A DNA stretch of 62,290 nucleotides from an uncultured Bacteroidia bacterium. Its GTDB lineage: Bacteria; Bacteroidota; Bacteroidia; Bacteroidales; UBA932. Within the stretch, counting starts at the first letter, position 1, and every line of letters begins with the position of its first letter. This document shows positions 22,323 to 25,775 of this stretch, piece by piece. The stretch lies in NCBI GenBank assembly GCA_902762435.1, contig CACWOH010000026.1, forward strand, positions 1-62,290, in the 5' to 3' direction. A program made the translations under genes and the position numbers. The notes below the pieces were generated by a model. That model was not told where the DNA came from. It made no database searches and saw nothing but the letters and a program-made list of their open reading frames with translations.

Positions 22323-22952
22323 ATGAGTCCGTTCCCCAGCCTGCACGCCTACGTAGAAGCGGAAATCCTGCCGCGTTACGACGCCTTCGACAAGGCGCAC
22401 CGACGCCCCCACGTGGAGCGCGTCATCCGCGACGCCCTCGCCCTGGCGGCCTTTTACCCGGTCGATCCGGAGATGGTGTACGCCGCAGCCGCCTTCCACG
22501 ATACCGGGCTCTGCGAGGGGCGGGAGACCCACCACCTCGCCTCCGGGCGCATCATCCGGGAGGATCCCGAACTCCCCCGCTGGTTCACCCCGGAGCAGAT
22601 CGAGACCGTCGCCCGGGCCGCCGAGGACCACCGAGCCTCGCTGGCGAGCGCCCCGCACAGCATCTACGGGCGCATCATCGCCGAGGCCGACCGGCAGATC
22701 GAGCCGGAAACCATCATCCGGCGCACCGTGCAGTACGGACTCGCCCACTACCCGGAAATCGACCGGGAAGGACACTGGCGGCGTACGCTGGAGCACCTGC
22801 ACGAAAAATACGCCGAAGGCGGTTACCTTCGGCTCTGGATTCCGGAATCGCCCAACGCGGAGAAACTCGCGCAGCTCCGGGCGCTGATCGCCGACGAAGC
22901 GCGCCTCCGCACCCTGTTCGAAACCTTCTTCGCGGAAGAAACGGCCCCCTGA
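22323..22952 (+). CDS. HD-domain metal-dependent phosphohydrolase
   Basis: A 209-residue HD-superfamily protein. The metal ligands are in RRPHVERV (first His), AAAFHDTGL (His-Asp pair) and a later ADRQ aspartate. The order matches small HD phosphohydrolases that act on nucleotides. Substrate is unknown. The ATG lies four bases after a promoter box, so the message is probably leaderless. Its stop codon is three bases before the first palindrome of the transposase element. Confidence 0.8.
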   Translation: MSPFPSLHAYVEAEILPRYDAFDKAHRRPHVERVIRDALALAAFYPVDPEMVYAAAAFHDTGLCEGRETHHLASGRIIREDPELPRWFTPEQIETVARAAEDHRASLASAPHSIYGRIIAEADRQIEPETIIRRTVQYGLAHYPEIDREGHWRRTLEHLHEKYAEGGYLRLWIPESPNAEKLAQLRALIADEARLRTLFETFFAEETAP

Positions 22953-22955
22953 AAC

Positions 22956-22997
22956 GGAATCCATCCTTATTTCAGCGCATTTTTGAGGATAGATTCC
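22956..22997. repeat. Left palindrome 1 of the RAYT element
   Basis: GGAATC-c-ATCCT (22956-22967) and AGGAT-a-GATTCC (22986-22997) form an 11-pair stem with one mismatch around an 18-base loop. It starts three bases after the HD gene stop. Confidence 0.75.
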
Positions 22998-23008
22998 TTT
23001 TTTCTTCC

Positions 23009-23056
23009 TTCCATCCTCAAATACGGGCTAAAATGAGGATGGAAACGTATTTTAGC
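23009..23056. repeat. Left palindrome 2 of the RAYT element
   Basis: TTCCATCCTCA (23009-23019) and TGAGGATGGAA (23034-23044) are perfect 11-base inverted repeats with a 14-base loop. A competing perfect inverted repeat, GCTAAAAT (23028-23035) with ATTTTAGC (23049-23056), overlaps it, so two alternative folds exist. Confidence 0.8.
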
Positions 23057-23137
23057 TCTGTTTTTTTTCGTTTTCCGAAAAAAAACCTTACTCTTGCGGC
23101 GTGAGGCCTGGTTTAAACTTTTAATAAAACTTCGATT

Positions 23138-23662
23138 ATGGAAAATTTTGATTCCCGCATCCGCGAGATCCTGGACGATTACCGGTCGCTCGCGTACAAG
23201 ACCTTGGATGACATGATGCAGGAGGCTTATCTTGAAATCGGCCGGGTCCTTTCCGAAGGGACGGATCCTACTCCGGCACGATCCATTCACGGGCTTTCTC
23301 CTTTTGTGCTGCGACAAATCCGCAAACACACGGACGACGGCGATCTGGAAAAATGGCTGACGTCAAGCGGCCCCGGCGAAAAGGAACAGTGTCTTCTTGA
23401 TTTCCTGCATTTCGGCAGTCTGCAAATGAAATCTGTCCGGGCCCGGTTCCCCCGCGCTTTTACTAAATGGACTGAAGAGGAGGATGAAACTTTGCTTGAG
23501 GCATACCATGAACAATTGGAAATGAAGCATCCTGTCCGCTGGGGCGACTTGTCCGACCGACTGGGCCGCAACCCGAATGCGTTGAAGCTTCGTCTGGAGC
23601 GTCTGGGCGAGAACCTGGGCTCAAACGCCGGCCATTCCAGGAGAGCCGGAACTGGCAGATGA
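23138..23662 (+). CDS. Myb/SANT-like DNA-binding protein paired with RAYT
   Basis: A 174-residue protein. The N-terminal 100 residues are helical with no motif I recognise. Residues about 108-157 form a Myb/SANT-like domain: FTKWTEEEDETLLEAYHE, then WGDLSDRLGRNPNALKLRL, with the spaced tryptophans of the family (W111, W135). A basic tail ends the protein. Its stop overlaps the transposase start (ATGA), so the two are translationally coupled. It may guide the transposase to palindromic DNA or repress the pair. The fold is moderately sure; the role is inferred. Confidence 0.7.
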   Translation: MENFDSRIREILDDYRSLAYKTLDDMMQEAYLEIGRVLSEGTDPTPARSIHGLSPFVLRQIRKHTDDGDLEKWLTSSGPGEKEQCLLDFLHFGSLQMKSVRARFPRAFTKWTEEEDETLLEAYHEQLEMKHPVRWGDLSDRLGRNPNALKLRLERLGENLGSNAGHSRRAGTGR

Positions 23663-24621
23663 ATCCTGAATCGGTCCGCGAAGCCGCAGTTCTGAGCGGC
23701 GGTCCATTCTGGCATCTGTACACCTCCGGCGAAACGATGGAGATCATCTTCGCCGGGACGGGAGATTTCTTGTTTGGAATCACGCTTCTGGGTATCTGTG
23801 CGGCGGCTTTTCCGCGCTGCCGCATCTTGACTTTCGCATTAATGAACAATCATTTACATATTGTTTTAGCAGGGCCGGAAGTGGATATCCCCAAGTTTTT
23901 CGAACTGTTTAAAAGAAGGCTGCAACGATATGTAAGCATCTGTGGGCGGGACTGCTCGCTGCGCCGTTTCGATGCAGAATTCTTCCGGATTCCCGACTTG
24001 CAGGCGCTGAGGAACGAAATAGTATACGTCAACCGGAACGGATTTGTAGTCCACCCGGAATGTACTCCTTTCTCATATTGGTGGAGTGCCGGGATATTCT
24101 TTTTTAATCCGATGGCGGAATTGCTCCCATCCATTCCTTTCGCTTCCCTGACTTTCCGGCAAAGGCGGGAAATGTGCCATTGTCGCGACGTGGCTCTGCC
24201 TGAGAAATATCGGGTATTTCCCGATTTTCCCATGGATAAAGACGGGAGCGTGGCACCCTTACTGCTTCCAACCAGTTTCTGCGCCATTCAGGAGGCCGAA
24301 AACTACTTCCGGGACGCTCATCAGTACTTCCAACGTCTGGGAAAGGATCATGAATCGCATGCCGAAGTGGCCCGACGGCTTGGCGACAAGGTATTTCTGA
24401 CGGATGAAGAAATGTATAGGGTTGCCTGCTCGATATGCGCCAAGGAGCATGGGTTCCCGCGGCCGGGCGTGTTGAGTCCTGCACAGAAAATGGATCTGGC
24501 CAGAAAGATGCATTTCGAATATAATGCTTCCAACAAACAGATCCGGAGGATTGTAATGCTACCGCAAGAGTTGGTAGACGAATTGTTCCCGGCAAAGCGG
24601 TTTCCATCCTCAAAACAATAA
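23659..24621 (+). CDS. REP-associated tyrosine transposase (HUH, Y1_Tnp family)
   Basis: A 320-residue Y1 nuclease of the IS200-like/RAYT superfamily. The HUH motif is HLH at residues 65-67 (in MNNHLHIVL). The candidate catalytic tyrosine is Tyr123 in the helix EIVYVNRNGFV. RAYT enzymes cut and join single strands at REP palindromes and usually have no flanking insertion-sequence ends. A C-terminal helical region (about 275-310, with YNASNKQIRRI) looks like a helix-turn-helix. The last codons form one arm of the right palindrome. The two required motifs look intact. Confidence 0.82.
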   Translation: MNPESVREAAVLSGGPFWHLYTSGETMEIIFAGTGDFLFGITLLGICAAAFPRCRILTFALMNNHLHIVLAGPEVDIPKFFELFKRRLQRYVSICGRDCSLRRFDAEFFRIPDLQALRNEIVYVNRNGFVVHPECTPFSYWWSAGIFFFNPMAELLPSIPFASLTFRQRREMCHCRDVALPEKYRVFPDFPMDKDGSVAPLLLPTSFCAIQEAENYFRDAHQYFQRLGKDHESHAEVARRLGDKVFLTDEEMYRVACSICAKEHGFPRPGVLSPAQKMDLARKMHFEYNASNKQIRRIVMLPQELVDELFPAKRFPSSKQ

Positions 24622-24690
24622 AGATTTGAGGACAGAAAGCGATTGATTCGCAATCTGTCCTCAGATATGCTTCAAAACGAGGATGAAACC
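24599..24690. repeat. Right nested palindrome of the RAYT element
   Basis: Outer arms GGTTTCCATCCTC (24599-24611) and GAGGATGAAACC (24679-24690) pair with a one-base bulge. Inner arms TGAGGACAG (24627-24635) and CTGTCCTCA (24655-24663) pair perfectly around a small GCGA/TCGC stem. The left outer arm lies in the last codons of the transposase gene. The right arm ends two bases from the aminotransferase stop codon. Confidence 0.8.
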
Positions 24691-24692
24691 GG

Positions 24693-25775
24693 TCAGATGC
24701 GGCCGGGGTAGGCCTCGAGGGCCTTCTGCAGCACCACGAGGGCCTTGGCGAGGTCCTCCTTGCAGAGGACGTAGGCGATGCGCACTTCCTGACGGCCTTC
24801 ATCACCGTCGCGCCTTCGTACTGGAAGTCGCTCAGGCACCAGCAGCAGAATTTCTCGGCGTCGTCCACGGGCAGCTTGGCCATCGTGTAGAAGGCGCCCA
24901 TCGGAATCGGGGAATACACGCCGGGAATCTTGTTGAGCCCGTCGATCAGGAAGTTGCGGCGCTCCAAGTACTCCTCATAGACACTGCTGAGGTACTCTTT
25001 CTGCACGCCCAGGGAGGCCTCGGCGACGACCTGGCCGAGCAGCGGCGGGGACAGGCGCGCCTGGCAGAACTTCATCACCGCAGTCGAACAGGACGACGTT
25101 CTGCTCGATCCCGTCCAGGTGGAAGGCCGAGATATAGGGCATGCCCGTGTAGATGAACTCGCGGTAGACTTCGTCACTGAAAAGGAACAGGTTGTGCTTC
25201 TTGACGATGTCGCGCAGCCGTTGCATCTCCTTGCGGGTGTAGAGGTATCCGGTCGGGTTGTTGGGGTTGCAGATGAGGATGGCCTTGGTCCGCGGGGTGA
25301 TCTGCTCCTCGAAAGCCTCCACCGAAGGCAGGCGGAAACCGTCCTCGATGCGGGTTTTGACGCTCTTGACCACGGCACCCACGGAAATGGCGAAGGCCAT
25401 GTAGTTGGCGTAGAAGGGATCCGTCACGATCACCTCGTCGCCCGGCCCCAGGCAGGACAGGAAGGCGAACAGCACCGCCTCGGAGCCGCCGCTGGTGATG
25501 ATGATCTCTTCCGGCGACAGGTAGATGCCGTACTGGGCATAGTACTGCACCATCTTGGTACGCAGGGAGAGGTAACCGTCGGAGGGGCTGTATTCCAGGA
25601 TCGACCGGTCCAGGTTCTTCACGGCGTCGATACCGCACTGCGGCGTCTTGATGTCGGGCTGTCCGATGTTCAGGTGATACACATGTACGCCGTTGCGCTT
25701 GGCGGCGTCGGCAAGGGGAGCCAGCTTCCGGATCGGGGAAGAAGGCATGTTCTGTGCGCGTTGCGAAATCTCCAT
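24693..25775 (-). pseudogene. PLP-dependent aminotransferase with two internal deletions
   Basis: The N-terminal 220 residues read as an intact fold-type I aminotransferase of the aspartate aminotransferase class (NIGQPDIKTPQ, NPNNPTGYLY, FLFSDEVYREF). Near 25077 the text jumps from NVVLFDC to a different frame with AVMKFCQARLSPPLLGQ. The roughly 24 missing residues would include the SxSKRYS segment with the PLP lysine. Near 24807 it jumps again from EGATVM to GRQEVRIAYVLCKEDL, losing about 14 residues. It ends normally with AYPGRI and a TGA at 24693-24695. As written it cannot be active. Decay and assembly error are both possible. Confidence 0.8.

Follow-up and report, generated by a model that had tools for sequence, protein, structure and literature searches.

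Most descriptions of RAYTs present domesticated transposases that stand alone, and why they are kept is a puzzle. We describe here a locus, within a 62-kb stretch of DNA (the window) from a Bacteroidales genome, where a RAYT-like gene has a coupled Myb/SANT-like neighbour that is conserved in one lineage, while lone relatives of the transposase serve as controls, an arrangement that lets one ask what a partner adds. In its published outline the REPtron, known for example from E. coli, is a RAYT (TnpA_REP) gene with flanking REPs (PMC6006769, PMC8266576), and our locus resembles it in its HUH motif with one Tyr, its RAYT-like fold and its flanking palindromes, as well as in the dispersal of palindrome doublets in some genomes with the gene itself staying at one locus. 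In contrast to the REPtron so described, the locus has no GT[AG]G enrichment at the hairpin foot, Y---N[GA] in place of Y---NP, a longer C-terminal extension and a coupled Myb-like gene. Similarly, TIRtrons with their TIRYT transposases (PMC3733652) and TnpA_Y1 subclass 2.1 (PMC6006769) are outlined as long RAYT relatives that, as here, carry extra C-terminal sequence and are flanked by inverted repeats, which are non-GTAG-REP and can form dimers or clusters. However, GGGGWSAS, a motif reported not to be present in all TIRs (PMC3733652), was seen in none of the four window hairpins with 10 nt on each side of them (read by eye), Y---NP is absent here, and the coupled partner gene has no equivalent in the portion of PMC3733652 that describes the TIRtron. 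TIRYTs are further characterised by a C-terminal helix-turn-helix domain; the C-terminus of the window transposase is helical in its AlphaFold2 model and has no HTH match in Pfam.

Also close by description is TnpA_Y1 subclass 2.6, reported from Bacteroidetes with atypical flanking structures that, as here, have copies elsewhere in the genome; these structures may be related to the window palindromes, the comparison being one of descriptions only (PMC6006769). Its members are given a median length of 179 aa and an HUH-Tyr distance of 82, whereas the window enzyme has 320 aa and a distance of about 58. Among eukaryotes, Harbinger is described as likewise joining a transposase gene and a Myb/SANT-like gene in one unit (PMC9179366). 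Its transposase is a DDE enzyme, however, in contrast to the HUH/Y1 fold and residues here, and neither transposition of the whole unit nor binding of the repeats by the Myb-like protein has support at this locus. No description of a RAYT-Myb pairing, searched for also as a bacterial HUH transposase with a Myb-like gene, was found in the titles and abstract openings of papers listed from an open-access library, and the word Myb is absent from the main text of PMC6006769. The enzyme and its hairpins are a unit of a known sort, but the Myb-like neighbour appears to be new. Our preferred reading, which we hold to be probable though far from secure, is that the locus is a REPtron/TIRtron-like unit to which a Myb-like protein has been added as regulator or accessory.

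A coupled gene pair between palindrome doublets

The original prediction, made from the letters of this stretch, had described a Y1 HUH transposase translationally coupled to a Myb/SANT-like protein, bracketed by structured DNA and fitted between two convergent stop codons, and each of these features is present. The pair with its flanking palindromes spans 22962-24685 of the window, with a doublet of ~30-nt palindromes on each side, and sits between two genes that converge on it: upstream an HD-type gene with its stop at 22952, and on the minus strand an aminotransferase gene with its stop at 24693-24695 and its match starting at 24696. This aminotransferase gene (24693-25775, minus strand) aligns to its relative as three pieces in shifted frames, as in a broken gene or one with assembly sequence errors. 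Stem scans and folds place the left palindromes at 22962-22991, this one imperfect, and at 23012-23041, 50 nt from the first and with the stem CATCCTCA...TGAGGATG. On the right, the first palindrome (24605-24634, also recovered by pattern search) overlaps the 3′ end of the transposase gene, and the second (24656-24685) lies 51 nt from it.

Downstream of the left doublet, similarity across upstream regions of the locus points to a putative promoter and leader on the plus strand (23060-23109), with an AT-rich dyad (23060-23086), the sequence TACTCTTG (23089-23096), which we take to be a putative -7-like promoter element, and the leader GTGAGGCCT (23101-23109). The first ORF (23138-23662, plus strand, 174 aa) encodes the Myb/SANT-like protein, which scores 27 bits against Pfam Myb_DNA-binding (cut-off 24.4). 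Its AlphaFold2 model (mean pLDDT 92.0) has a long N-terminal helix at 4-40, helices in 55-103 and the Myb domain at about 110-155; a Foldseek search with this model gave a best E of only 0.5. In PHROGs it matched a single family that has no assigned function (E 1.4e-5). A second, weak match (E 0.014), to D5-like transcription regulators of phages, fits a regulator role.

The second ORF (23659-24621, plus strand), which overlaps the first by ATGA at 23659-23662, encodes the transposase of 320 aa. HLH is present at 65-67 and Tyr at 123, and H65, H67 and Y123 are invariant among 34 aligned sequences, the window's included; the HUH motif and single catalytic Tyr that mark a RAYT or TnpA_REP (TnpA_Y1 class 2) are both there. 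The AlphaFold2 model (mean pLDDT 88.6), which ends in the helical C-terminal extension, has as its best PDB match 4er8, the E. coli RAYT bound to a REP hairpin (Foldseek probability 1.00 and E 1.0e-3 over 135 columns, with a TM of 0.58 by target and of 0.32 by query), with mostly IS200/IS605-type transposases and some unrelated proteins ranking after it. Profile matches fall below their cut-offs, at 13.6 bits against 23 for Pfam Y1_Tnp and 16.3 bits against 80 for NCBIfam REP_Tyr_transpos. Class 2 TnpA_Y1 proteins are said to have Y---NP in common (PMC6006769); this signature is found in none of the 34 aligned sequences, 33 of which have Y---N[GA] and one Y---HG. By its anatomy the enzyme looks RAYT-like, as had been predicted, and with Y---N[GA] and no GT[AG]G foot it looks like a subgroup of its own. 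It probably cuts and rejoins its own palindromes as folded single strands.

Both genes bear marks of constraint in the comparison of genomes G080 and G322, the only pair close enough to measure, with dN/dS of 0.07/0.74 for the RAYT and 0.059/0.425 for the first 140 codons of the Myb-like gene (NG86). The transposase of G065 (L015 / L053) is cut to 246 aa. Four further diverged RAYT relatives of 25-28% identity (L002, L003, L004, L005) are held by the window genome.

Palindromes across the transposase family

Scanning the whole window for the family stem revealed four palindromes, all at the pair locus. Folded as single strands, the two doublets gave z scores of -5.64 and -5.98, a stability that none of 200 shuffles reached, and each doublet folds as one hairpin, as REP doublets do in REPINs. 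To set these in a family context, 35 RAYT loci were examined, two of which were set aside from the same-stem test for short flanks. Hairpins with the same stem on both sides were present at 22 of the remaining 33 loci (four of the 22 being near-copies, L045-L047 and L069), as compared to 0 of 330 dinucleotide shuffles. The palindromes look like cognate repeats of the enzyme, in agreement with the prediction. The window itself fails the strict same-stem rule (score 5) because its palindrome arms are imperfect, yet it has a doublet on each side. Hairpin detection forced pairs 3-8 and required 8 of 11 pairs; since pairing was demanded, the resulting pair table is no independent test of pairing, whereas the same-stem shuffles are. 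Four hits (L061, L070, L044, L047) were dropped by eye before the stem tables and the GT[AG]G count.

Neighbouring hairpins less than 120 nt apart keep a start-to-start distance of 51 nt in 22 of 25 cases. The stems vary by lineage, with TCCTC, TCCAC, AGCAC, GCCAC, TTCCC and others among the 66 hairpins, and this turnover offers matched nuclease-hairpin pairs for the study of how HUH enzymes read folded DNA. GT[AG]G was found at the foot of 3 of the 66 hairpins against a background of 148 in 1320, showing no enrichment. Lone RAYTs bear similar inverted arrays, which rules out the palindromes as a property of the Myb pair; they go with the transposase family. For example, the lone RAYTs of G113 and G048 (L153, L154) are bracketed by TCCAC hairpins, and neither the stretch around them nor the rest of those genomes gave a Myb hit.

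Dispersal of the palindromes was surveyed with strict patterns in 400 genomes of the genus, using reversed patterns as a control. The TCCTC type is commonest in G322 (44) and G080 (19), both of which bear the pair, followed by G232 (13), G217 (7) and G086 (6), and the TCCAC type is commonest in the pair-bearing G108 (17), followed by G070 (15), G303 (13), G109 (10) and G300 (9); the control gave 0 in all of these genomes except G217 (1). In G322, G080 and G108, which are three of the eight pair-bearing genomes, the dispersed copies have the same stem type as the palindromes around the genome's own pair. Strict TCCTC counts for the other five are 3 in G200, 2 in G065 and 1 each in G000, G150 and G251. 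The different stem that G200 has of its own was found at its locus only, the own stem of G251, CATCCATGAA, was left out of the dispersal counts, and the two strict hits in G065 are both at its own locus, with one match elsewhere when two mismatches were allowed.

For the genome that holds the window, the strict family pattern gave a single match, at the locus. A looser ATCCTC...GAGGAT pattern matched at 5 places, the locus being one, versus 2 in the control, and one of the four others (L010) was inspected. Allowing two mismatches gave 4 matches (control 0), two at the locus and the others at C21:7362 and C11:78575. Another degenerate hairpin follows each of these last two, at distances of 49 and 51 nt respectively, making two degenerate doublets. 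Taken across genomes, the counts suggest that doublets can spread to other sites and have done so in some relatives. The original prediction had named two findings that would speak against it, a Myb-like gene absent beside most homologous transposases and palindromes occurring nowhere else in the genome. The gene is indeed absent beside most of them and the palindromes are rare elsewhere in the window genome; they are, however, dispersed in G322, G080 and G108. Beside dispersed TCCTC doublets in G080 there are also degenerate hairpins with GTGCGC-like or TCCAC-like stems (L086, L088, L089, L090), which look as if older versions of the stem lay side by side.

Linkage of the Myb-like gene to the transposase

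At 8 of the 35 loci the Myb-like gene lies directly upstream of the RAYT, and all eight are at one chromosomal locus. They comprise all seven RAYTs of at least 60% identity among the 400 genus genomes, the window's included, and one 48% relative; at the other 27 no Myb was found in the fetched stretch, which was about 1.5 kb on each side for most and was ended by the contig for some. The dedicated partner of the prediction is conserved and coupled within one lineage, and it was not found at most loci. In the tree, a single branch separates the eight paired RAYTs from the others (support 86/85; present in 84% of 200 bootstrap trees), and the shuffled mean was 7.3 changes. An ATGA-type overlap is present in 7/7 close orthologues; for G080 it was read in the second frame of the disrupted gene, and for G150 in a gene truncated where its contig stops. 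In G200 the two genes are separated by 12 nt.

The chromosomal site, near the same aminotransferase gene, is shared by all nine genomes inspected, which were chosen for holding the pair or its Myb. The aminotransferase gene is adjacent in eight and about 5 kb off in G251, and the HD-type gene was found in six, in five of them directly on the other side. The orientation is one way in G000, G251, G150, G200 and G097 (Myb only) and the opposite way in G108, G080, G322 and G065, as would be expected if the inverted arrays allowed flips in place.

Such confinement to one chromosomal locus might be expected if the Myb were a passenger, that is, a member of a host gene family lying beside a RAYT by chance, with an overlap that arose from compact packing. 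We regard this as improbable. It would fit the survey of 398 family genomes, 13 of which gave a full-length Myb match, in 8 cases with no RAYT beside it. In the window genome, the only match to the window's Myb protein is its own. The passenger reading would also fit G097, which keeps an intact Myb frame and the leader, and has neither the transposase nor family hairpins at the locus (one strict match lies elsewhere). Because its Myb nests among the paired Mybs (support 91/85 and 90/75), G097 seems to have lost transposase and palindromes together. The idea is further kept alive by G080, where 19 hairpins are present though the Myb reading frame is disrupted towards its end, which could mean a dispensable Myb or an assembly error, and by the weak correlation of Myb and RAYT distances (Mantel r 0.56, with 57 of 720 permutations as high). 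Against a chance neighbour, the overlap is kept while Myb identity to the window's protein drops to 43-51%, and a separate tandem-Myb family also occurs just upstream of RAYTs in five loci. In addition, the palindromes enclose both genes in five of the eight paired loci (the window, G108, G080, G322 and G200). One side is cut, lost or ambiguous in the other three: the upstream side is cut in G150, G065 has upstream hairpins only, no family palindromes having been found downstream of its RAYT (L015 / L053), and the downstream side is ambiguous in G251.

Likely role of the Myb-like protein

The suggestion that the Myb-like protein gives the unit its hairpin specificity was not supported. Its recognition helix, RNxNA[IL][KR][LI]RLx[RH]LG, is kept at six paired loci bearing four stem types; the solo Mybs of G097 and L017-L022 (seven in all) nearly keep it, and five more distant solo Mybs and L026 differ. 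Since the lone RAYTs of G113 and G048 use the same TCCAC stem without a Myb, and since the helix is near-constant across stems, the Myb is unlikely to set stem specificity. Site 32 of the RAYT separates two TCCAC loci from four TCCTC loci, which are too few loci to mean anything.

The same evidence bears on whether the Myb could be an obligatory recruiter, as in eukaryotic Harbinger, which would bind the palindromes as double-stranded DNA and load the transposase. For the Myb-like protein of Harbinger, binding to the transposase as well as to the terminal repeats is reported, together with a lower conservation than that of the transposase (PMC9179366), and here too Myb distances equal or exceed RAYT distances in 15/15 comparisons. 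The overlap in all seven close orthologues is in keeping with such a partner, and the palindrome dyads would suit a dimeric DNA binder. We nevertheless judge a recruiter unlikely, since L153 and L154 have their stems on both sides and no Myb hit in the stretch, the recognition helix is unchanged while the stem changes, and dispersed palindromes occur where no full-length Myb match was found, as in G070 and G109, neither of which gave a match, and in G232, where the match covers the Myb domain alone.

Returning to the preferred reading of a REPtron/TIRtron-like unit with an added regulator or accessory, the putative promoter-leader between array and Myb is alike in 7 of 8 aligned upstream regions of the locus, the exception being G200. 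The RAYT-less G097 is among the seven, and we therefore put regulation of the operon first among possible roles of the Myb. The sequence itself shows how the two genes are ordered and overlap, the catalytic residues, the fold as predicted, the layout of the palindromes, their dispersed copies in relatives and the conserved locus. We infer that a vertically kept Y1 HUH transposase would nick and rejoin the palindrome doublets as folded single strands, and that the doublets would be able to move to other sites. The Myb-like protein, as first cistron translationally coupled to the transposase in this lineage, may bind double-stranded promoter-leader DNA or another constant target, and would thereby control or assist the transposase without choosing the hairpin stem.

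A broader proposal is more speculative, and we rate it as conceivable but doubtful: the locus could be the bacterial equivalent of Harbinger, in which a Myb-like protein dedicated to the HUH transposase gates its action on folded palindromes, within a wider Bacteroidales RAYT family whose stems turn over by lineage on a nearly fixed 51-nt frame and would represent a natural series of orthogonal nuclease-hairpin pairs. Readings of the locus as cargo or defence were not supported, as the transposase had no tblastn match in either the plasmid or the phage collection, a scan of viral contigs (which detects close relatives only) did not support viral cargo, and PADLOC gave no match for the transposase and four weak PDC-S02 matches for the Myb (E 0.00056 to 0.0051), all in its N-terminal helix region.

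Other small genes were also seen next to RAYTs. The tandem-Myb small protein mentioned above, different from the window's, lies just upstream of another RAYT lineage (L030, L032, L038, L039, L139) and may represent a second association of Myb with RAYT; these loci were left out of the pair count because they are not bracketed by hairpins of the family type. At L130 and L131 a Myb of the tandem type has no RAYT in the stretch, and further Myb-RAYT neighbours were noted at L026, L035 and L126. Finally, in another RAYT clade (L045, L046, L047, L069, L076) the transposase gene is immediately preceded by a conserved ORF of 80-90 aa, which could be a different small partner.
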